Positions 587 through 60,802 of a DNA stretch of 64,000 bases are shown here, piece by piece. The stretch spans positions 1-64,000 of the forward strand of contig JAFVTU010000021.1 of NCBI GenBank assembly GCA_017503075.1. The letters run 5' to 3'. Position numbers and translations under genes: made by a program. The notes under the pieces were generated by a model that saw nothing but the letters and a program-made list of their open reading frames with translations, was not told where the DNA came from and made no database searches. The stretch is from Paludibacteraceae bacterium (GTDB lineage: Bacteria > Bacteroidota > Bacteroidia > Bacteroidales > Paludibacteraceae). Numbering within the stretch: the stretch's first letter is position 1; every line of letters starts with the position of its first letter.

Positions 587-2095
587 ATGGAAATTATTGC
601 CAATGGAATCAAATTTTATCTGATGGGCGGAAAGGCCTATGTGATGAACAACCACTATCACGGCGACGTGATTATCCCCAGTCATATTCCCGACAACAAT
701 GGAGGTGTCATACCTGTGGCAGGTATAGATATTCGTGCGTTCTGCAACTGCGCGGATCTCACTTCCGTGGTTCTGCCCGAAGGGTTGCAGTCCATAGCAG
801 CATTTGCCTTTATGGGATGTACTAGTCTGCGTAGCATCGTGATCCCCGACAGCGTGACGCATATCGATGCCTGTGCGTTTGAATACTGCAACCAACTGGA
901 GCGAGTAGTATTACCCAAAGGGCTGACCTACCTGCCCGAACGATGCTTCTGCTGCTGCGAAGCACTGAGTGATATAGTTCTGCCAGACACGTTGGAGCTT
1001 GTGGGCGAATATGCCCTACACCTCACGGCATGGATGAAGCAGCAACCAGAGGGGATTGTATATGCGGGTGATATACTATATGGTCATAGGTGGGACACCT
1101 ATAGTGAGCGTACATTGCAGGTCAAAGACGACACACGCGTGATTGGCGAAGGCGCCATGGAAGGCAACCAGACGCTCACGCATCTGATCCTGCCAAGCAG
1201 CGTGAGACAGATTGGGGCTAACGCCTTTAGAGAATGTAAGCACCTGAAGACAGTGGAACTGGCAGAAGGATTAGAAGTCATCGGGGAGAATGCCTTTGAG
1301 CATTGCGAAGATCTGGAGGCAGTGTATATACCTGCAAGCGTGAGGTATATCGGTGCGGAAGCGTTTGCGCACTGCAAGCGGTTACGCGAGATAGTAGTGG
1401 CCGCAGATAATCCATACTTGGACAGCCGAGGCGACTGCAATGCTGTAATTGATAGCAGGAAAAACAAGTTGATAGTAGGTTGCAGCACGACGGTGATACC
1501 CGATGATGTGGAGGTGATAGGCGATTATGCGATGGTAGGCGTATATGCCGCAGAGGAATGGGTGATACCGAGGAACATCAAATGTGTGGGCTACTACGCA
1601 TTTGCCGAGAACATGTCACTAAGGCGATTGGTAGTGCATGATAGGATGGAGCTGATTAGTGGCTGGGCATTTTTTAGTTGCGAGAATCTCCAAGAGATTG
1701 TGCTACCCGATAACTATATCGAATTTGGAGAGCAGGCCTTTGGCGACACCAACCTATCTGATAGTACAACCAGTGGCGCCGTCTGTGTGGGCAATCACTT
1801 GCATGCCTATTACGCGCAGGATGAAGGCGAAAAGGTGCAAGAATGCATCATTCCTGAAGGGATAGAGGCGATTGATGACAAGGCATTTGACTTCGAACCC
1901 AATGGATTGCGCATCTTCCTACCAAAGAGTCTGAGATATGTATCGAATGCCGCCTTCATACCCAGTGAAGCGGAATACGAGTTGATTGTGCCAGAGGGCG
2001 TAGGCGAAGATTATCCTTATTACGATATAGACAACCCTCAGTATGCACCTGACATCTACAGCAAATGGATGGACATATTGGATGATGAAGGTTGA
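587..2095 (+). CDS. BspA-like leucine-rich repeat (LRR_5) protein
   Basis: About 500 residues made almost wholly of LRR_5/BspA-type repeats of about 23 residues, with the pattern IxxxAFxxCxxLxxVxLPxxLxxI. This family is usually a surface or secreted adhesin, but no signal peptide or sorting domain is visible, so the location is uncertain. I chose the ATG at 587 because the protein then starts MEIIANGIKFYLMGG, parallel to the start of the following paralogue. An ATG at 527 with AGAAGGA 7 bp upstream and a TTG at 509 are in frame and would add 20 or 26 residues. The stop codon lies inside a 7-bp-period repeat that leads into the next gene. Confidence 0.85.
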   Translation: MEIIANGIKFYLMGGKAYVMNNHYHGDVIIPSHIPDNNGGVIPVAGIDIRAFCNCADLTSVVLPEGLQSIAAFAFMGCTSLRSIVIPDSVTHIDACAFEYCNQLERVVLPKGLTYLPERCFCCCEALSDIVLPDTLELVGEYALHLTAWMKQQPEGIVYAGDILYGHRWDTYSERTLQVKDDTRVIGEGAMEGNQTLTHLILPSSVRQIGANAFRECKHLKTVELAEGLEVIGENAFEHCEDLEAVYIPASVRYIGAEAFAHCKRLREIVVAADNPYLDSRGDCNAVIDSRKNKLIVGCSTTVIPDDVEVIGDYAMVGVYAAEEWVIPRNIKCVGYYAFAENMSLRRLVVHDRMELISGWAFFSCENLQEIVLPDNYIEFGEQAFGDTNLSDSTTSGAVCVGNHLHAYYAQDEGEKVQECIIPEGIEAIDDKAFDFEPNGLRIFLPKSLRYVSNAAFIPSEAEYELIVPEGVGEDYPYYDIDNPQYAPDIYSKWMDILDDEG

Positions 2096-2123
2096 AGGTG
2101 GAAAGTGTAAAGGCGAGAGTGGT
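2088..2123 (+). repeat. Heptad repeat array between the two BspA genes
   Basis: Five consecutive 7-bp units at 2088, 2095, 2102, 2109 and 2116 (AAGGTTG to AGAGTGG), then one T and the ATG of the next gene. The stop codon of the first BspA gene (2093-2095) is inside the first two units. The segment AAAGTGTAAAGGCGAGAGT is repeated exactly at 25605-25623 in front of rsmG. Confidence 0.8.
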
Positions 2124-6116: not shown

Positions 6117-6956
6117 TTATTTTACGGTCATCAAGAATAGTTCACCCTTGGTATTGGTGTATGCAATTTTTCCTTTTGCTACGTGTGGGAAGATAGCCAT
6201 TTGGTCTTTAGTAACAAGCACTTGGTTCTTGCCATCCAAGGTGTAGGCCACGATACCCGAAGCGGTCACTTGCTCGCCATTGTCGTCGTAGTCCATCGCA
6301 ACAATGGTGTTGTTGTCGTACCATTGTGGTGCATGGCAGCGAGATGCCACAAAGCGAACATTATTGCCATCGATATCGCAGATATAGCATCCCCTGCCTG
6401 ATACGCGGTAGATGATGTGCTGGTTATCTGGCGAAATTTTTGCATCGATATAACGCTCGTTGGCGCCGTTAGGAGTGAGCACGATATGTTTGCCATTGCG
6501 CACCAATACAATATGGAGATCGGTATTGATGGTTACATCGAGTTGAGCCGACTTATTAATCAATTCGGTCATGCCCGTTTGTGCTTTGGCTTGCATGGTG
6601 CGTTGGTTAGAGGTCATGCTGTGCTGGTAGATGTTGCTACGGGTGATTTTGTCCTTACCCATAGTTTTCTCGCGATAGACAATATCCTTGCCGTCTCGGC
6701 TGATTTTCACAGCCCAACCAGCACCTACGCCTTCGCTGATTACTTTGCGAGCTTGTGTCGCTAAATCATAGCGAATCAGCCCCTTGTCATAACTGTCAGT
6801 CAGCAGGATATAATCGCCTACAGGGCTGAATCCTGCCACTTTCCACATCTTACCTGCCTCGGTAGGTAGTTGTTGCGTAGATACTACTTCGAGTATCTGT
6901 GCACTAGCTAGCATAGATAATGCACATGCTGCTAAGAATAAGAATGTTTTTTTCAT
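6117..6956 (-). CDS. Exported WD40-like (PD40/TolB-type) beta-propeller protein
   Basis: 279 residues with a signal peptide (MKKTFLFLAACALSMLASAQ). Repeats such as GFSPVGDYILLTDS, ISRDGKDIVYREK and ISPDNQHIIYRVSG are typical PD40 blades, found in TolB-like propellers and the N-terminal halves of S9 peptidases. No catalytic domain is attached, so it is probably a binding or scaffold protein in the periplasm or outer membrane. It lies 9 bp upstream of the first amidase gene on the same strand and just downstream of the second, so the three are likely co-expressed. Confidence 0.75.
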   Translation of the reverse strand: MKKTFLFLAACALSMLASAQILEVVSTQQLPTEAGKMWKVAGFSPVGDYILLTDSYDKGLIRYDLATQARKVISEGVGAGWAVKISRDGKDIVYREKTMGKDKITRSNIYQHSMTSNQRTMQAKAQTGMTELINKSAQLDVTINTDLHIVLVRNGKHIVLTPNGANERYIDAKISPDNQHIIYRVSGRGCYICDIDGNNVRFVASRCHAPQWYDNNTIVAMDYDDNGEQVTASGIVAYTLDGKNQVLVTKDQMAIFPHVAKGKIAYTNTKGELFLMTVK

Positions 6957-6992: not shown

Positions 6993-7034
6993 AGTGTAGA
7001 GTGTAGGGTGTAAAGTGTAAAGTGTAAAGGCTGG
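6993..7034. repeat. Heptad repeat array (AGTGTAA type)
   Basis: Six units in exact 7-bp phase at 6993, 7000, 7007, 7014, 7021 and 7028 (AGTGTAG, GGTGTAA, AGTGTAA, AGGCTGG). It fills most of the 104-bp spacer between two minus-strand genes. Confidence 0.85.
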
Positions 7035-13742: not shown

Positions 13743-13815
13743 ACGCCAAGGCGTTTCGGACGGCACAGAGTGCCTATGGGACGCCTCTTTGAGGCTAATG
13801 GACGGCTTCGCCTAT
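13742..13815 (+). repeat. Cluster of four GC mini-hairpins after thrS
   Basis: Successive small inverted repeats: AAACGCC/GGCGTTT (13740-13755), GGCAC-AGA-GTGCC, GCCTC-TTT-GAGGC and GGC-TTC-GCC. They are joined by TATGGGACG and TAATGGACG linkers. The GGACG linker is the one seen in other spacers of the window, while the stems differ. Confidence 0.7.
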
Positions 13816-13850
13816 AGGTTATTGGCGAGAGGTTAGAAATTATAGGCGGG
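13816..13850 (+). repeat. Heptad repeat array before the CotH gene
   Basis: Five 7-bp units at 13816, 13823, 13830, 13837 and 13844 (AGGTTAT, TGGCGAG, AGGTTAG, AAATTAT, AGGCGGG), continuing directly from the mini-hairpin cluster. Confidence 0.7.
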
Positions 13851-18704: not shown

Positions 18705-18749
18705 AGTTTTAAAAGTTTTAAGGGTTTTAAGAGTTTTAAAGGATATTAA
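18705..18749 (+). repeat. 9-bp-period repeat before the helicase gene
   Basis: Units AGTTTTAAA, AGTTTTAAG, GGTTTTAAG and AGTTTTAAA at 18705, 18714, 18723 and 18732, then GGATATTAAG, ending 3 bp before the ATG at 18753. Confidence 0.8.
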
Positions 18750-18752
18750 GAA

Positions 18753-25555: not shown

Positions 25556-25625
25556 AGGACGCTTCGCTATAGGATGGCGCTTTGCGCTTAAAGGTGTAGG
25601 GTGTAAAGTGTAAAGGCGAGAGTAT
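25556..25625 (+). repeat. Mini-hairpins plus heptad array in front of rsmG
   Basis: GGACGCTTCGCTATAGGATG and GGCGCTTTGCGCTTAAAGG mini-hairpins (25558-25592) run into five 7-bp units at 25591, 25598, 25605, 25612 and 25619. The ATG of rsmG begins exactly at the next base. Confidence 0.85.
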
Positions 25626-26864: not shown

Positions 26865-26914
26865 ACCGCTACGCTGTTAGAAGTTAGACCGCCTGCGGCT
26901 GTTAGAAGTTAGAT
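26865..26914 (+). repeat. Mini-hairpins joined by double heptad linkers before prmA
   Basis: Pattern: ACCGCTACGCT, GTTAGAAGTTAGAC, CGCCTGCGGCT, GTTAGAAGTTAGAT. The 14-bp linker (two 7-bp units) is repeated at 26876 and 26901, while the hairpins differ. The same linker occurs at 37582. Confidence 0.8.
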
Positions 26915-26922
26915 TAAGAGAT

Positions 26923-29499: not shown

Positions 29500-30429
29500 A
29501 TGATATATTCCATGACGGGCTACGGCAAAGCCGAGAACCAAGTAGCCAATAACAAAAAGATAGTAGTAGAAATACGCAGTTTGAATTCCAAATCAATGGA
29601 TTTGAGTGTGCGTATAGCCCCACAACTGCGCAGCAAAGAGTTGGACATCCGCACGCTGATTGCGCAACGCCTGGAACGCGGCAAAATTGATTTGAGTATT
29701 TATTACCAAGATGCAACACTAGGCGAGAATACTGCCACATTTGCGCCTATCAACCGCGAGGCATTTGCTTATTATTATAAGGAGCTCACTGCCCTACAAA
29801 ACGAATTAGGTTGGGCAAACAACCAAGATATTGTTTCGGCTATCTTGCGCATGCCCGATGTGACGAAAGTGCAAGACTGCGGCGATGTGAGCGATGAGGA
29901 ATGGGCAGTGGTGCTGCAAACCATAGAGGCGGCTATCGTGCAGTTTAATGCTTTTCGCGAACAAGAGGGTGTATCGCTCTATCAGATGTTCTGCGAGAAA
30001 CTAGATGCTATAGCAGGGCTTTTGGCAGAGGTAGAACCCTACGAGCAAAGCCGTGTAGAGAAGATCAAAGCACGCATTGAGGCGAACTTGGAGCAGTTGT
30101 CTGCTACTACGCAGCAAGCCATCGACCGCAACCGTCTGGAGCAAGAGATGATATTCTACCTCGAGAAGTTGGACATCACTGAGGAGAAAGTGCGTTTGAC
30201 AAACCATCTGAAGTACTTCCGCGAAACCATGGGCGAACCTCTCCAAACAACTATAAACAATTCTACACCAACTGGAGTGGGCAAAAAACTCGGTTTTATT
30301 GCACAGGAGATGGGACGTGAGATCAATACACTTGGCAGCAAGAGTAACCAAAGCGAGATGCAGATCATCGTGGTGAAGATGAAAGACATCCTTGAGCAAA
30401 TCAAAGAGCAAGTGTTAAATGTGCTTTAA
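29500..30429 (+). CDS. YicC/YloC family endoribonuclease
   Basis: 309 residues. MIYSMTGYGKAE at the start, RSLNSKSMDLSVRI and the C-terminal NTLGSKSNQSEMQIIVVKMKDILEQIKEQVLNVL are hallmarks of YicC, a stress-linked family shown in E. coli to have endoribonuclease activity. The ATG at 29500 matches the family start; in-frame codons upstream lie inside the lipoprotein gene. It is adjacent to gmk, as is common in many bacteria. Confidence 0.93.
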   Translation: MIYSMTGYGKAENQVANNKKIVVEIRSLNSKSMDLSVRIAPQLRSKELDIRTLIAQRLERGKIDLSIYYQDATLGENTATFAPINREAFAYYYKELTALQNELGWANNQDIVSAILRMPDVTKVQDCGDVSDEEWAVVLQTIEAAIVQFNAFREQEGVSLYQMFCEKLDAIAGLLAEVEPYEQSRVEKIKARIEANLEQLSATTQQAIDRNRLEQEMIFYLEKLDITEEKVRLTNHLKYFRETMGEPLQTTINNSTPTGVGKKLGFIAQEMGREINTLGSKSNQSEMQIIVVKMKDILEQIKEQVLNVL

Positions 30430-30462
30430 TGATTAAGAATTTTGAATTAATAATTTTGAAAT
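30428..30462 (+). repeat. Heptad repeat array in the yicC-gmk spacer
   Basis: Five 7-bp units (AATGATT, AAGAATT, TTGAATT, AATAATT, TTGAAAT) from 30428. The yicC stop (30427-30429) overlaps the first. Confidence 0.75.
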
Positions 30463-32764: not shown

Positions 32765-32767
32765 AAA

Positions 32768-32809
32768 CAATTTGCTATTTGACTATTTACAATGTACAAT
32801 TTATAAGAA
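32768..32809 (+). repeat. Heptad repeat array leading to the apbE start
   Basis: Six 7-bp units (CAATTTG, CTATTTG, ACTATTT, ACAATGT, ACAATTT, ATAAGAA) from 32768; the ATG at 32810 follows in exact phase. Confidence 0.7.
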
Positions 32810-37563: not shown

Positions 37564-37682
37564 GACCGCCACTCTGTGGCTGTTGGAAGTTAGACCGTTA
37601 CATTGTTAGATTGCGCTATGCGCTGAGAGAATATCTGATAATAACCCTAACAACGCAGTGGTCTAACGGCAAAGCAATCTGA
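37564..37682 (+). repeat. Mini-hairpin/heptad-linker element before coaBC
   Basis: CGCCACTCTGTGGCT hairpin, linker GTTGGAAGTTAGAC (37582-37595; compare 26876), GCGCTATGCGC hairpin (37613-37623). GTTAGACCGTTACATTGTT (37588-37606) also pairs imperfectly with AACAACGCAGTGGTCTAAC about 40 bp on, so the whole leader of coaBC could fold. No gene is seen here. Confidence 0.65.
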
Positions 37683-40420: not shown

Positions 40421-40768
40421 ATGTTAGATTACATTATGTTATTAGCTCCTGCGGCGACAGAAGGAGCTGCAGGAGGTGCCGCTCAACAAAGTAGCGGTTG
40501 GTCATTCTGGGTAATGATGATTTTGATTTTTGTTGTGATGTATTTCTTTATGATTCGTCCACAACAAAAAAGGCAAAAAGAGTTGCAGAAGCAACGTGAC
40601 GCATTGACTAAAGGTAGCAAAGTTGTTACTGCAGGTGGTATCTACGGCAATGTAAAAGAAGTACAAGAAACGACATTCTTGATTGAGATTGCGAAGGATG
40701 TAGTAATCAAAGTGGACAAAGGCAGCGTATATGTGGCTGCAGAAGATGCGCAGCAGGCACCTAAGTAA
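40421..40768 (+). CDS. yajC: Preprotein translocase subunit YajC
   Basis: 115 residues. One membrane helix (about 25-45; WVMMILIFVVMYFFMIRPQQKRQKE) with the family motif MIRPQQKRQKE, then a soluble domain KGSKVVTAGGIYGNVKEV. It is an accessory of the SecDF-YajC translocase. The stop codon overlaps the first base of the heptad array in front of the next gene. Confidence 0.95.
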   Translation: MLDYIMLLAPAATEGAAGGAAQQSSGWSFWVMMILIFVVMYFFMIRPQQKRQKELQKQRDALTKGSKVVTAGGIYGNVKEVQETTFLIEIAKDVVIKVDKGSVYVAAEDAQQAPK

Positions 40769-40809
40769 GTGATGAGAGATGAGGGATAAGTGATGAGGGA
40801 GGAGCGATG
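40768..40809 (+). repeat. Heptad array joining yajC stop and ybbR-like start
   Basis: Six exact 7-bp units (AGTGATG, AGAGATG, AGGGATA, AGTGATG, AGGGAGG, AGCGATG). The first base is the last of the yajC stop codon, and the last three bases are the ATG of the following gene. Confidence 0.9.
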
Positions 40810-41766
40810 AATTGGCAAAAAATACATAAACAAGTCAAATGGTTTTGGTTTTGGCTTTGGCGGAAGGATGCCTTTATTTTTCTGCTATTTGTAGGATTGG
40901 CCTTTATCTTTTGGTGGGGACAAGCGATGTCTTCACCAAGGGATATGCGCATGCGCGTTTCTGTTTCATACACGGATATCCCTAGCTCCATTGCATTAGA
41001 CGGAGAATTACCCAAAACGATAGAGGTCACGCTACGTGACGAAGGTAAGCAATTGCGTCAAGTTCGTCGTCAGGGATTACAGTTGCACATCAACATGCAG
41101 CCATATTTACAAGGAGAAAAAGGTCAACTAGACATTACCTCAGAGGTCCTGCGTCCTCGTTTAATGGACGCTTTGCCTGGTTCGACGCGTCTTCAGCACA
41201 TAGATCCAGAGGGTATGATAGTGGGTTATACACGGCAATCGAGTAAGCGTGTAGCAGTAAGGTTGCAATCTCATGTAAGATTGGCAGAGCAATACCAGTT
41301 AGTAGGTGCAGTAACGATACGCCCCGACTCTGTGGAAGTGTATGGTAATCATCTAGACAACATCGAATATGTATTGAGTGACAGCATATGTATAGATGCG
41401 CTGCGCGATACTGTACGCAAAGAAGTGCCGCTAATCCCCCCCATTGGTGTTCGGTTGTCTGCCACTAGTATAACTGCAGAATGGGTGGCGGAGCAGTTTA
41501 CTGAAAAAGGGTTTACGTTGCCAATATTGGTTAGAGGTTTGCCTCGTGGCGTAAAGATGCGTTTGTTTCCTCAGGTGGCCGATGTAACTATTCGTGTGGG
41601 GGTAAAGCATTTTGCTAATGTTGACGACGACGATTTACAGTTGTATTGTGATTATCCTGACGGAGAGGAGACGGATTGGTTACAATTACAGGTAGCGAGT
41701 AGTAATCCGCATGTGCGTAACATTCGTATCAAACCGCATTCTGTGGAATATATAATAGAGAGGTGA
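40807..41766 (+). CDS. YbbR-like domain membrane protein
   Basis: 319 residues. An N-terminal membrane helix (about 23-42; FIFLLFVGLAFIFWWG) precedes periplasmic YbbR-like beta domains (YTDIPSSIALDGELPKTIEVTLRDEG; VRPDSVEVYG-like TIRPDSVEVYGNHLDNI). In Gram-positives YbbR (CdaR) regulates a diadenylate cyclase; the role in Bacteroidota is unclear. The gene is usually found between yajC and coaE, but here a DegT aminotransferase gene follows and coaE is absent. Confidence 0.85.
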   Translation: MNWQKIHKQVKWFWFWLWRKDAFIFLLFVGLAFIFWWGQAMSSPRDMRMRVSVSYTDIPSSIALDGELPKTIEVTLRDEGKQLRQVRRQGLQLHINMQPYLQGEKGQLDITSEVLRPRLMDALPGSTRLQHIDPEGMIVGYTRQSSKRVAVRLQSHVRLAEQYQLVGAVTIRPDSVEVYGNHLDNIEYVLSDSICIDALRDTVRKEVPLIPPIGVRLSATSITAEWVAEQFTEKGFTLPILVRGLPRGVKMRLFPQVADVTIRVGVKHFANVDDDDLQLYCDYPDGEETDWLQLQVASSNPHVRNIRIKPHSVEYIIER

Positions 41767-41788
41767 ATGTGTAAAGCGCACAATTTAG

Positions 41789-41816
41789 AGTAGAAGGTTT
41801 AAAGGCGAGATATATG
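41789..41816 (+). repeat. Heptad repeat before the DegT gene
   Basis: AGTAGAA, GGTTTAA, AGGCGAG and ATATATG, four 7-bp units; the last contains the ATG at 41814. Confidence 0.7.
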
Positions 41817-42944: not shown

Positions 42945-43012
42945 TGGACGCCGCAAGCGGTTATGGAGGGACGCGTTTAAGGTTTAGGGTTGAAGTGTAA
43001 AAGGTGAGAAAT
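42945..43012 (+). repeat. Mini-hairpins plus heptad array before rpoN
   Basis: GGACGCCGCAAGCGGTTATGG (hairpin CCGC-AA-GCGG) and GGGACGCGTTTAAGG, then 7-bp units from 42979 (AAGGTTT, AGGGTTG, AAGTGTA, AAAGGTG), ending next to the ATG at 43013. Confidence 0.75.
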
Positions 43013-48245: not shown

Positions 48246-48345
48246 GGTTCAAAGTTGTTCAATGTTATTCAATGTTGTTCAACATGGTTCAAAGTTGAAC
48301 GCAAAGCGCTGAACTATTCTGAACAGCGCAAAGCGCTTTTGAACT
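48246..48345 (-). repeat. 10-bp-period array and twin GCGCTTTGCGC hairpins between ffh and the TPR-like gene
   Basis: Five 10-bp units of the AATGTTGTTC type fill 48251-48300 (plus-strand sense). Then GCAAAGCGC (48301) and GCGCAAAGCGC (48326) mini-hairpins are joined by CTGAACTATTCTGAACA linkers that share GAAC with the units. This is the same layout as the heptad/mini-hairpin elements, with a different period. Confidence 0.8.
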
Positions 48346-49709: not shown

Positions 49710-49787
49710 ATTTTCTAGAGAATGTTTGTAATATTCACACATAGAACAAAAAAAATCATATGATAAAATGAAATTTTATCTAAAAAC

Positions 49788-49818
49788 TTGCGTATATGCT
49801 TTTTTTTTTGTAATTTTG
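49788..49818 (+). promoter_or_regulatory. Bacteroidota promoter for tilS
   Basis: TTG (49788-49790, TTGCGTATAT), 20 bp, TAATTTTG (49811-49818) then CAG. Codons upstream of 49825 are not transcribed from it, which places the start at 49858. Confidence 0.8.
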
Positions 49819-49857
49819 CAGGTTGTATTAATTGGGCAAACAGTGCTGCGCAGGGTT

Positions 49858-50760
49858 ATGAAATATATACGCGACAACAAGTTACTGGAAAAAGGTAACA
49901 AGGTGTTGGTATGCGTGAGCGGTGGGGCAGACAGCGTAGCATTACTAGATGTTCTGCAACGAGGAGGATTTGATTGCGTAATAGCACACTGCAATTTTCA
50001 CCTCAGAGGCGAAGAAAGCGATCGAGATGAGGCGTTTGTGAGGAGGTTGGGCGATGAGGAGAGAGGCGGAGGAGTTATCGTGAAGCATTTTGACACAGTG
50101 GAGTATGCCAAAGAGAAAGGGATAAGCATCGAGATGGCGGCACGGGAGTTACGCTACAGGTGGTTTGCCGAAGTGGCTGAAGCAGAAGAATGTAAGGCAA
50201 TAGCCGTGGCACACCATCAGAACGATCAAGCGGAAACCGTACTGCTGAACCTGAAACGCGGTGCAGGCATTAGGGGACTATGCGGGATGCGGGCAAAAGC
50301 GGAGAATGCGTATGGATTAGACGGTGAAGCTGTGAAGCAGTCAAGCGAGAGGATACCGATTATTCGTCCGTTATTGTGTACGACGAGGGATTACATAGAG
50401 CACTACCTGCGCGACATACGGCATATAGAATGGATCGAAGATTCAACAAACAGCGATACGAAGATCAAACGCAATGCCGTGCGAGACCAACTGAAAAGTT
50501 ACAGCAAGGCCGAGATAGAACACATCGCAGCAACGGCAGAAAGGATGCAAGGGTATGTGGATTGGTTAGAAGGACAAGATACAAAAGAAGCAGGCAGAGC
50601 CAAGCTTTACGAAGAGTTGAAAGACTATGGTTTTGCGGAGATAGACAAAATATACGATGCATTGCATAGTAGCGTTGGCGGAAAAGTGTTTGAGTCGGCA
50701 ACACATAAGGTAATCATCAGACGAAAGGCGATGAGGTTAGAGGCGAAAGGCGAGAGGTGA
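49858..50760 (+). CDS. tilS: tRNA(Ile)-lysidine synthase, short form
   Basis: 300 residues against roughly 430 in most Bacteroidales. The N-terminal PP-loop domain is complete (CVSGGADSVALLDVL, HCNFHLRGEESDRDE, VAHHQNDQAETVLLNLKRGAGIRGLCGM, WIEDSTNSD). The C-terminal tRNA-binding domain is missing after residue about 290. The gene ends in a 7-bp repeat that codes RLEAKGER and runs into aroE. It may be a natural short form, as in Aquifex, or the tail was replaced by the repeat. It makes lysidine at C34 of tRNA-Ile(CAU), so function should be kept. Residues near 60-67 (DEERGGGV) may also be repeat-derived. Confidence 0.9.
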   Translation: MKYIRDNKLLEKGNKVLVCVSGGADSVALLDVLQRGGFDCVIAHCNFHLRGEESDRDEAFVRRLGDEERGGGVIVKHFDTVEYAKEKGISIEMAARELRYRWFAEVAEAEECKAIAVAHHQNDQAETVLLNLKRGAGIRGLCGMRAKAENAYGLDGEAVKQSSERIPIIRPLLCTTRDYIEHYLRDIRHIEWIEDSTNSDTKIKRNAVRDQLKSYSKAEIEHIAATAERMQGYVDWLEGQDTKEAGRAKLYEELKDYGFAEIDKIYDALHSSVGGKVFESATHKVIIRRKAMRLEAKGER

Positions 50761-50768
50761 GAGGTATG
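50726..50768 (+). repeat. Heptad array at the tilS 3' end running into aroE
   Basis: After an 8-bp AGGCGATG come five exact 7-bp units (AGGTTAG, AGGCGAA, AGGCGAG, AGGTGAG, AGGTATG) from 50734. They hold the tilS stop (50758-50760) and the aroE ATG (50766-50768). Confidence 0.9.
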
Positions 50769-51494
50769 AAGAGATATGGTATAATAGGCAATCCATTGGG
50801 ACATTCGTATTCGGAGCGATACTTTACTGACTTGTTTGTACGAGAAGGGTTAGATGCAGTGTATCACCCCTATGCAATAGAAAGTATTGAGGAAGCGAAA
50901 GGTTTGTTGATGGAGTTGGACGGTGCAAATGTAACCTACCCCTACAAGGAAGCCATCATACCCTACCTACGCGAAGTGGACGAAGTAGCAAGACAAATCG
51001 GTGCGGTAAATGTGATACACAAAGGAAAAGGACACAACACCGATTGGATAGGTTTTAGGGATAGTCTGGGAAGTATACTGACAACAGACGACAAGCGTGC
51101 GTTACTACTAGGCACCGGAGGCGTGAGCAAAGCCATACAATATGCATTGCAAGAGATGGGGATAGCATGTACGGTGGTGAGCAGGAAGGTAAAAGGCGAG
51201 AGGCGAGAGGTAATCAGTTATGATGAAGTGTATGAGGAGGTGATGGCAGCACATCAGATAGTGGTGAATTGTACGCCTCTGGGTATGCATCCACTAGAAG
51301 GGGAGATGCCAAAGATACCCTATGAATGGCTGACGGAGAAACATTTGCTATACGACTGCATTTATAATCCCGAAAAGACCCTGTTCTTGCAGATGGGAGA
51401 AAGACAAGGATGCAGGACAAAGAACGGTCTGGAGATGCTACAAAAGCAAGCAGATGAGGCGTGGAAGATTTGGACGCTCGCAGAGCGAAAGTGA
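50766..51494 (+). CDS. aroE: Shikimate dehydrogenase
   Basis: 242 residues. IIGNPLGHSYSERYF (shikimate site), NVTYPYKEAIIPYL (catalytic Lys), GAVNVIHK, LLLGTGGVSKAIQYAL (NADP site) and NCTPLGMHP are present. It reduces 3-dehydroshikimate in the aromatic pathway. Residues 141-150 (RKVKGERREV) are coded by four 7-bp units in the loop after the NADP-binding strand CTVVSRK. The ATG at 50766 is preferred over a GTG at 50757. Confidence 0.94.
   Translation: MKRYGIIGNPLGHSYSERYFTDLFVREGLDAVYHPYAIESIEEAKGLLMELDGANVTYPYKEAIIPYLREVDEVARQIGAVNVIHKGKGHNTDWIGFRDSLGSILTTDDKRALLLGTGGVSKAIQYALQEMGIACTVVSRKVKGERREVISYDEVYEEVMAAHQIVVNCTPLGMHPLEGEMPKIPYEWLTEKHLLYDCIYNPEKTLFLQMGERQGCRTKNGLEMLQKQADEAWKIWTLAERK
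51187..51214 (+). repeat. Heptad array inside aroE
   Basis: AGGTAAA, AGGCGAG, AGGCGAG and AGGTAAT in exact phase; it codes KVKGERREV, the same peptide type as the mnmE insert. Confidence 0.85.
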
Positions 51495-51517
51495 GAGTTG
51501 AGAGATAAGTGATAAGT
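51490..51517 (+). repeat. Heptad array between aroE and the DUF4831 gene
   Basis: AGTGAGA, GTTGAGA, GATAAGT and GATAAGT; it overlaps the aroE stop and ends 2 bp before the ATG at 51520. Confidence 0.8.
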
Positions 51518-52584: not shown

Positions 52585-53489
52585 AACGAATAGTATGGGT
52601 AATAGCCCTTTTGGGTAGTGTATGGAGTGTGTATGGTCAGGAGTTGCGCTGTACGGTGACAATCAACTCGGATCAGGTGCAAGGTAGCAACAAGGAGATG
52701 TTTAACACTTTGAAGCAAAGCATCGAGGAGTTTGTGAACACATCTCGTTGGACTAATATGACCTTTCAAGAGAAAGAGAAGATCGAGTGCAACATGTTGC
52801 TAGTGGTGAAGAGTGTGGAGAATGATATGTTGAATTGTGAGTTTACTTGTCAGAGTCGTCGTCCAGTGTATGGTACGAGTTATACCACCCCTACCTTGAA
52901 TTTTAAGGACAACAATTTTGTATTCACCTATCAAGAGTACGACCGACTGGATTATCAGCAAAGTGTGTTTACAACCAATCTGACAGCTTTATTGGCTTAT
53001 TACTGTTATCTGATTATTGGTCATGACATGGATTCGTTTTCCAAGTTGGGTGGTACGCCATATTTTCAAGCATGCGAGAACATTGTGACTGCGGCGCAAT
53101 CGGCATCATTAGACAACGCTGAAGCTGCAGGATGGAAAGCATTTGAAAGCAATCGCAATCGCTATGCACTTATCAACAATTTGATGGATGAAGCGTTTAA
53201 GAAATATCGGATATATTACTATGATTACCACCGTCATGGTTTGGATGAGATGGTGAACAATGTAGCTAATGGTCGTGCGCGTATCGCAAAAGATATTAAA
53301 GTACTGAAAGAGGCATACAACGCAAGACCTGCCACTTATGTAATCAACGCTTTCTTAGACGCAAAGTCCGATGAATTGGTGAATATATTTAAGAAAGGTA
53401 CTAGCGAAGAAAAGAAAATGGTATATGAATTGCTGATGGACATTGATCCTACCCGACAAAGCACATATGACGAGATTAACCGTGACTAA
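52581..53489 (+). CDS. DUF4835 family exported protein
   Basis: 302 residues with a signal peptide (ending VYGQ). QELRCTVTINSDQVQGSNKEMFNTLKQSIEEFVN, GTSYTTPTLNFKDNNFVFTY and the conserved YYCYLIIGHDMDSFSKLGG identify this Bacteroidota family, often located near coaBC. Role unknown; perhaps outer-membrane or surface. It is translationally coupled to the DUF4831 gene. Confidence 0.88.
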   Translation: MKRIVWVIALLGSVWSVYGQELRCTVTINSDQVQGSNKEMFNTLKQSIEEFVNTSRWTNMTFQEKEKIECNMLLVVKSVENDMLNCEFTCQSRRPVYGTSYTTPTLNFKDNNFVFTYQEYDRLDYQQSVFTTNLTALLAYYCYLIIGHDMDSFSKLGGTPYFQACENIVTAAQSASLDNAEAAGWKAFESNRNRYALINNLMDEAFKKYRIYYYDYHRHGLDEMVNNVANGRARIAKDIKVLKEAYNARPATYVINAFLDAKSDELVNIFKKGTSEEKKMVYELLMDIDPTRQSTYDEINRD

Positions 53490-53514
53490 TAAATAGCAAA
53501 TAAATAACAAAACA
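53487..53514 (+). repeat. Heptad array between the DUF4835 gene and pheT
   Basis: TAATAAA, TAGCAAA, TAAATAA and CAAAACA in 7-bp phase from the stop codon, 2 bp before the pheT ATG. Confidence 0.65.
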
Positions 53515-60767: not shown

Positions 60768-60802
60768 AATTATGAATTATGAATTTTGAATGATGAATTA
60801 TT
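60768..60802. repeat. Heptad array (AATTATG type) between the MFS and glucokinase genes
   Basis: AATTATG, AATTATG, AATTTTG, AATGATG and AATTATT in exact 7-bp phase; the last unit holds the stop codon of the transporter gene. Confidence 0.9.

Follow-up and report, generated by a model that had tools for sequence, protein, structure and literature searches.

Degenerate heptamer arrays of high turnover in the intergenic spacers of a Paludibacteraceae bacterium

The gap between yajC and a YbbR-like gene in a Paludibacteraceae bacterium is made up of 7-bp units running from the stop codon of one gene to the start codon of the next. The window, by which we mean the whole analysed stretch of 64,000 nucleotides, carried this spacer at 40768-40809. 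The six units were AGTGATG, AGAGATG, AGGGATA, AGTGATG, AGGGAGG and AGCGATG, the first beginning at the final base of the yajC stop codon TAA, the last ending on the ATG of the YbbR-like gene. This was the arrangement given in the preliminary description, which had also called the repeats exact; the units were degenerate rather than exact, because their lag-7 identity was 0.74. Tandem Repeats Finder gave a period of 7 at the same place, and the identities of both genes were confirmed by Pfam (YajC, YbbR). The array, with a unit of about GATGAGR, filled the spacer on the plus strand (40768..40810, P 0.0005). It was absent in all seven relatives with a readable junction, where other spacers were found in G014, G025, G005, G011 and G028, and the two genes overlapped in G035 and G002 as judged from starts extrapolated from the alignments.

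Including this spacer, 13 sites of the window had been cited as period-7 structures. Each site, together with 15-bp flanks, was compared for its lag-7 tract with 2000 dinucleotide shuffles; the sites had been chosen by eye, so these P values are uncorrected for selection and the unselected tests are the wider ones given below. Eight of the 13 sites stood out clearly with P<=0.0015 (2088, 6993, 25591, 32768, 40768, 50734, 51490 and 60768) and lag-7 identities of 0.63-0.82, two were weak (P 0.010-0.018), and three failed to reach significance. On the minus strand, the array at 6993..7034 (unit AGTGTAA, or TTACACT on the gene strand; P 0.0005) preceded the ORF start at 6956 by 36 bp, and the one at 60768..60802 had the unit AATTATG (P 0.0005). 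At the orthologous junction of the latter, the congener G014 carried a different heptamer tract of the CTAAACA type with a hairpin, along with a short AATTAT piece resembling the array in the window (P 0.005). The other clear arrays were on the plus strand. The one at 50734..50768 (AGGYGAR, P 0.0005) had its first 27 bases within the 3' end of ORF 49768-50760 and supplied the stop codon of this ORF. The array at 2088..2123 (AAGGTGG/AAAGTGT, P 0.0005) overlapped the stop of ORF 509-2095, and a short one at 51490..51517 (AGTTGAG/ATAAGTG, P 0.0015) included the upstream stop. The spacer at 25556..25625 (P 0.0005) combined a GC hairpin (GCGC TTT GCGC), a shorter GGACG piece and an AAAGTGT heptamer array ending with AAAGGCGAGAGTAT ahead of the ATG, and its flanking genes had no spacer in G014. 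The array at 32765..32809 (ACAATTT/CTATTTG type, P 0.0005) appeared by eye to belong to the same family as that of G025 at this junction, where G014 had a TTTAGAG array with an embedded hairpin.

The weak sites, also on the plus strand, were a tract at 42979..43012 before rpoN (identified by Pfam; P 0.010, with lag 9 scoring higher) and another at 30428..30462 (P 0.018 at lag 7), in which a 14-bp repeat (AATTTTG/AATTAAG) was clearer and lag 14 scored higher; the latter junction had no spacer in G014. The lag-7 tract was not significant at 13816 (P 0.062), 53487 (P 0.11, lag 11 scoring higher) and 41789 (P 0.98). The first of these is a poor heptamer tract that follows tandem hairpin modules with the frame GGAC-stem-loop-stem-TAT (13743..13850, plus strand), and the last lies in the 47-bp spacer between the YbbR-like gene and a DegT gene (41767..41813, plus strand; genes by Pfam). 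At 53487-53514, a period of 11 fitted better than 7 (score 13 vs 6).

The scan proposed in the preliminary description, period 7 in all spacers against shuffled spacers, was carried out on about half of the genome to which the window belongs (G000), namely 1.06 Mb of 2.06 Mb with the window included. Genes were taken from our own simple ORF and codon-score caller and not from a standard annotation (844 genes, 577 spacers), and the genomes compared were one per species. One contig, C18 (17,753 bases), was a 99.99% copy of C7 85027-102779, and the assembly is thus redundant there. A period-7 tract with a score of at least 13 was found in 55 of 569 spacers after removal of C18, when the mean over 20 shuffles was 0.35 and the maximum 2. 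The lag-7 autocorrelation of the spacers gave z=6.6 in the window (lag 14, z=2.9; lag 21, z=3.8) and z=14.4 over the 1.06 Mb. Length-matched coding pieces carried such a tract in only 3 of 577 cases vs 55 of 577 spacers, and the coding lag-7 identity of 0.254 was inside the range seen at the remaining lags not divisible by three; the arrays are thus mostly non-coding in location, some extending into gene ends. At a lower threshold (score at least 11), 81 arrays were detected in 75 of 601 spacers of G000 and 64 arrays in 60 of 492 spacers of G014. The duplicate contig was dropped from the 55/569 count and, below, from the 3240 array pairs, the 34 shared blocks and the frame-hairpin counts of G000; it remained in the z of 14.4, in the coding-piece, 81-array, one-mismatch, spacer-length, orientation, conservation and perfect-hairpin counts, and in the run that supplied the block count of G014. 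The period-7 observation is largely real.

Seven was the strongest period and was accompanied by others. Among the 569 spacers, where the shuffles gave 0.1-0.4, clear excesses were found for periods 9 (16 spacers), 10 (23), 11 (40), 18 (18), 20 (21) and 22 (33), and multiples of 7 were far above the shuffles as well (period 14, 35; period 21, 14). Periods 4, 5, 8 and 15 were moderately above the shuffles (5, 6, 5 and 11 spacers), and periods 6, 12, 13, 16, 17 and 19 were found in 0-2 spacers. The periods other than 7 had families of their own, such as AACTTTTAA for period 9, TGTTCAATGT and CTACTCTATA for period 10, and TAACTAATAAC and CATAGGAACTT for period 11. Families of periods 9, 10/20 and 11/22 were seen at C13 3545-3893, C4 55132-55239, C6 14847-14920 and C5 28147-28266 of G000, with more in the window at 18705-18750 and 48247-48297; their units were common to many sites, and some of them faced period-7 arrays at orthologous junctions.

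In the congener G014, gene order matches that of the window almost throughout, and the spacers of the two genomes were compared junction by junction. Over 301 orthologous junctions, the units were mostly not conserved between the two species at each site, as the preliminary description had anticipated. An array was present only in G000 at 17 junctions, only in G014 at 17, in both at 4 and in neither at 263, the 4 comparing with about 1.5 under independence. In the four two-sided cases, the families were the same at C1 48353 and C9 99398 and different at C4 14605 and C4 42587. Among the 34 one-sided arrays, 3 faced a spacer shorter than 10 bp, 23 faced a spacer with no detectable similarity, and 8 showed some similarity (P<=0.01). 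These eight include C4 15399, C7 119542, C9 44888 and C9 108503, where the opposite spacer had a related tract that was shorter or less regular. At several one-sided junctions, inspection by eye found a 10-bp family opposite a 7-bp one at C4 12928, C1 49645 and C1 158119 and a 9-bp family opposite a 7-bp one at C1 112648. Two of the one-sided junctions, C7 80081 and C11 31025, are probably AT-rich conserved sequence and not arrays, the latter including an ORF omitted by the gene caller. When only pairs with both lengths of 25-400 were compared, the median excess identity between G000 and G014 was 0.054 for array spacers (24 pairs), 0.125 for repeat-free spacers (71) and 0.053 for spacers with other repeats (22), the repeat-free ones thus being the best conserved of the three. 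The possibility that array spacers are longer than their orthologues was unconvincing, with the array side longer at 21 of the 34 one-sided junctions.

Two neighbouring junctions of the window illustrate this change. Between the YbbR-like and DegT genes, five of ten relatives (G025, G005, G035, G002 and G028), including the nearest outgroup, had a 4-base gene overlap, four (G033, G016, G012 and G011) had other short non-overlapping spacers, and G014 had a 40-bp array of GAGGCGA heptamers in the place of the 47 bp of G000. The arrays can thus be net insertions, a polarity taken from this single junction. Between DegT and rpoN, three different heptamer families were present in G000 (weakly), G014 and G025, and the genes overlapped in G017 and G012 and abutted in G005, with extrapolated starts. 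Between G000 and G014, then, the turnover of array sites was high even though gene order was retained.

Arrays were also found beyond this pair of species. In samples from 11 relatives in the genus, period-7 arrays with a score of at least 11 were carried by 4 of the 49 spacers sampled in G014, 2 of 13 in G025, 5 of 28 in G017, 4 of 16 in G035 and 1 of 7 in G002; the samples of G005, G033, G016, G012, G011 and G028 (8-20 spacers each) had none. These small empty samples do not indicate absence, as G005 and G016 have a CTAAACW array elsewhere. Among ten other families of the order (29-40 kb each), spacers with arrays numbered 4 of 19 in G055 (z=4.9) and 1 of 14 in G060, and the remaining eight had no period-7 array in the 29-40 kb sampled from each. 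A survey of named loci, covering 15 of 18 with L019, L025 and L033 left out, detected arrays in 1 of 16 spacers of Flavihumibacter, 2 of 21 of a Bacteroidetes MAG (CHIT2) and 1 of 13 of a Bacteroidaceae MAG from horse feces, and gave 0 of 19 in UBA2364 and 0 of 89 over 11 mostly spirochaete loci. Within the genus, 16 of 37 genomes contained triples of the CTAAACW unit; elsewhere in the order 3 of 24 did, and in a phylum sample that included G000 itself 5 of 198. Triples of RAGGTTA were present in 12 of 61 genomes. The mirrored control patterns matched 18 of 61 genomes in the CTAAACW search and 12 of 61 in the RAGGTTA search, the latter equal to the pattern itself; since any sequence fitting the mirrored pattern is again a triple of heptamers, this control is not a clean negative and shows rather how wide the vocabulary of units is.

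Short GC hairpins were embedded in some of the arrays. In the frame GGAC-N9..17-TAYNG, an outer stem of at least 4 bp was formed by 38 of the 69 middles of G000 and by 48 of the 74 of G014, when the shuffled value was 0.9%, and most middles were distinct (62 of 69 and 61 of 74, respectively). A set of perfect hairpins gave 44 of 55 distinct in G000 (C18 included) and 40 of 54 in G014. Of the G000 hairpins, 53 of 55 were 11-15 nt long; the stems were mostly of 4-6 bp, GC-rich and variable, the paired stems began with G, and the last base of the tag was paired. Tandem GC hairpins, variable in the stem and constant in the linker, were seen in the window at 13743-13850, 26865-26922 and 37564-37682, the linker varying by family and species (at 37564, TTAGA in G000 and TCAGA in G014). 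The phasing of hairpins to the 7-bp step was considered and rejected, the linkers being 7, 8 or 9 long by eye and the hairpins mostly 11-15 nt. Stems that change and yet stay paired could reflect selection for structure or template switching within inverted repeats, a process described as equalising the arms (PMC8604942).

These hairpins suggest that the mobile entity might be the hairpin itself, an SDR- or REP-like element inserting with a short target duplication, possibly through a Y1-type single-strand transposase, so that the heptamers would be accumulated copies of target or linker. In keeping with this, the pairing and variety of the frame middles exceed the shuffled level, the hairpins were flanked by the heptamer of their own array as seen by eye (TATAGGA, GTTTAGTG, TGTTAGA and CATTTTC types), and G000 encodes a protein of 369 aa matching Y1_Tnp. 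This protein, at G000:C5:66627-67733 (L042 6624-7733), was the sole Y1-transposase-like match in the genome, and its relatives were found in 24 of 61 genomes (E<=1e-10), all within this genus. However, its Pfam match was weak (24.5 bits, cut-off 23), its C-terminal region had no Pfam match, and it adjoins type I restriction-modification genes. Furthermore, a search of G017 (98% complete) at E<=1e-10 did not recover the protein, and PF01797 likewise had no match there at E<=0.001, even though arrays are present in 5 of 28 spacers of this genome. A RAYT-type transposase was thus rejected as the required driver, and the predicted Y1-type protein may be regarded as a lead and not as the cause. Many arrays had no hairpin at all, and the linkers between hairpins were not of one length. 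A search for the reverse transcriptase family PF00078 gave no match in G000, and an RNA route through this family is therefore not indicated. Overall, we consider hairpin mobility a rather unlikely source of the arrays.

The units and their similarity to one another were then compared within and between arrays. The claim that the period is kept rather than the sequence was borne out, as period 7 held where the unit sequence differed. On the other hand, the idea that each site makes its own unit did not stand, since consensus units and longer blocks recurred among sites above chance. Identical consensus units were shared by 55 of 3240 array pairs in G000, compared with a mean of 10.2 and a maximum of 18 when letters were shuffled within units, and by 41 of 2016 pairs in G014, compared with 7.3. 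Matches within one mismatch amounted to 9.6% between G000 and G014, and to 8.8% and 10.7% within each genome, against a null of 3-5%. Exact blocks of at least 20 bp were shared by 34 pairs of G000 arrays vs 10.1 (maximum 16 in 12 permutations of the unit order) and by 17 pairs of G014 arrays vs 6.3 (maximum 9, unit order permuted); this test preserves the units and not the 14-bp superunit, so local amplification of 14-mers could explain part of the excess. Such a superunit was indicated by the alternation of variants. In G000, A and T alternated in 14 of 15 matches to the CTAAACW family when overlapping ones were counted (10 of 11 places), and A and G in 11 of 15 matches to the RAGGTTA family. 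The repeating unit of G000 is thus frequently 14 bp long, and its order is shared by sites far apart, although the A/T alternation was not general (3 of 15 matches in G016). The sequence is thus not site-specific, and the period is real and widespread in G000.

Within the arrays, similarity fell with distance. In 21 G000 arrays of at least 42 bp, the identity of copies 1-5 units apart was 0.71, 0.57, 0.48, 0.41 and 0.37, and in 17 G014 arrays of the same minimum length it levelled off (0.71, 0.64, 0.57, 0.55 and 0.57). A copying process such as slippage, as had been proposed, agrees with this drop, which local duplication predicts; stepwise local duplication fitted the decay more clearly in G000 than in G014. 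With 71% identity between adjacent copies, the long arrays were less uniform than the near-identical copies that characterise STRR-like repeats, STRR being the name for the tandem heptamer repeats of cyanobacteria. Slippage confined to each site, in which local sequence is multiplied at a 7-bp step with no copying between sites, would account for this decay and for the difference of units among sites. It is nevertheless improbable as the whole explanation, given that units and blocks are common to sites and species above chance and that most one-sided arrays oppose an orthologous spacer without detectable similarity. Because of the shared consensus units and recurring blocks, copying between sites was added to the explanation.

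We therefore favour, with moderate confidence, an explanation in which the arrays are STRR-like, degenerate and dispersed heptamers that occupy parts of many spacers in this genus, turn over fast, grow locally, are seeded from other sites and are probably near-neutral. An array would begin when a short piece of another one is copied into a gene boundary by ectopic recombination, gene conversion or template switching. It would then grow or shrink as one or two 7-bp units are duplicated or deleted at replication, decay by point mutation, and finally be lost or overwritten. The short GC hairpins with variable stems inside some arrays may spread along with them. Stops and starts would be merely places that tolerate insertions, and the arrays would therefore probably be near-neutral or selfish and not regulatory.

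The position of the arrays relative to genes bears on the contrary suggestion that they are functional leader elements, serving as binding sites or standby tracts for the translation or transcription of the downstream gene, a role suggested for the TAACTGA repeats of Beggiatoaceae (PMC4679880). Among the co-directional arrays of G000, 35 of 60 ended within 25 bp of a called start. Arrays were commoner in divergent than in convergent spacers in both genomes (G000, 15 of 60 and 4 of 55, with 56 of 486 co-directional; G014, 10 of 50 and 4 of 50, with 46 of 392 co-directional; score at least 11), as a regulatory reading would likewise predict. The near-start arrays of G014 leaned mildly to purine-rich (16 vs 9 of 30), and an AAAGGCRAGA piece recurred before the ATG at several sites by eye. 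In contrast, the near-start arrays of G000 were mixed in orientation (14 purine-rich and 11 pyrimidine-rich of 35), a lack of bias that speaks against Shine-Dalgarno-like selection there. The stop-to-ATG link did not survive as a rule: among co-directional spacers with at least 70% of their length taken up by an array, only 1 of 32 had a length that was a multiple of 7, and the lengths modulo 7 were spread over the residues, so that no register existed. The arrays at 6993-7029, with a gap of 36 bp to the ORF start (6956), and at 50734-50768, partly inside the upstream ORF, were likewise off register, and the upstream stop codon can itself be part of an array, as at 50734-50768 and 2088-2123. 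With little conservation at orthologous sites and units that vary freely in sequence, a leader function is distinctly improbable. Chance or an assembly artefact, to which the three non-significant cited sites and the duplication of part of C7 by C18 might point, is scarcely credible in view of an approximately 150-fold excess over shuffles with the duplicate removed and of the arrays in other genomes.

Dispersed, near-neutral heptamers as favoured here can be compared with several known systems. The SDR elements of Nostoc are reportedly very short structured elements lying within heptamer arrays, with stem changes that keep the pairing, and are said to form mobile consensus families of 21-27 nt. 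By this definition, the hairpins inside the present arrays resemble them in their pairing-preserving variation, whereas 44 of the 55 hairpins of one frame were distinct here in place of a consensus sequence. The SDR work of Elhai 2008 is cited in PMC3116915. The GTAG and CGTC REPs are, like the hairpins here, short spacer palindromes with no evident dedicated transposase, and the CGTC type, reported in Bacteroidetes among others, has stems of 8-9 bp that almost always begin with AT pairs, and unpaired tags (PMC3733652). The present hairpins shared a CGTC-like tag on one side (GACG in the orientation of the analysis); identity with CGTC REPs was rejected, as they were shorter (53 of 55 at 11-15 nt), their stems began with G and the last tag base was paired.

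The preliminary description knew of no account of such repeats in Bacteroidota. In fact, heptamers before start codons had already been published with Bacteroidetes included, as MacGregor 2015 gives TAACTGA and other heptamers in five Bacteroidetes, mostly intergenic (PMC4679880). The TAACTGA heptamers lie ahead of start codons in Beggiatoaceae and cyanobacteria, with shorter spacers in some relatives (PMC4679880). They are like the present arrays in lying in spacers of some Bacteroidetes with other heptamers alongside, in a position just before starts that apparently is also frequent here, and in spacers longer than in repeat-free relatives, as may hold here too; they differ in having one fixed unit (PMC4679880). 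Membership in this family was rejected, as an exact TAACTGA triple was absent from all 37 genomes of the genus and present in 1 of 24 genomes from elsewhere in the order. The heptanucleotides of the cyanobacterium Calothrix (cited in PMC4692102) are likewise tandem heptamers with several families per genome; compared by description only, the arrays here differ in their strongly degenerate copies and many unit families. The intergenic heptamers GGGAATC of Xanthomonas and GGGGAYT of Nostoc also vary between close species, in length as well as sequence for two close Xanthomonas (PMC4692102). Those, however, are G-rich with quadruplex potential and lie mostly between the same genes in two species (PMC4692102), whereas G-rich units were rare here (e.g. 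C7 120960) and the sites turned over. Mrazek 2007, as cited in PMC4679880, found heptamers to be the most abundant class in most surveyed genomes, and a polymerase-contact length has been proposed for the 7-bp step (Mrazek 2007 as cited in PMC4679880 and PMC4692102). None of the open-licence papers among the matches listed dealt with arrays of mixed period and hairpins of variable stem in Bacteroidota.

A broader reading would place the spacers of this genus under one template-copying process, in which forward steps of 7, 9, 10 or 11 bp give tandem repeats, fold-back gives hairpins of variable stem, and pieces are moved between sites. We hold this only tentatively and as unlikely. If it were true, period and stem would be kept while the sequence drifts with no selection on it, and much of the intergenic DNA of a bacterium would have a mutational origin. 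The genus bears on the question of why bacterial tandem repeats so often step by 7 bp. Each genome has dozens of arrays from many families of units, some with hairpins inside, and a relative with the same gene order has gained and lost arrays, so that comparison can show how arrays arise, grow and are replaced. A further caution is that what looks in these genomes like a stop-to-start spacer, a leader motif or a C-terminal tail may be an inserted repeat and not a regulatory or coding sequence. Right before the ATG of several genes, for example at 25612-25625 of the window and at C1 48353-48390 of G000, a recurring end piece of the form AAAGGCRAGA..TAT was further observed, and it was common to arrays of different families and to G014.
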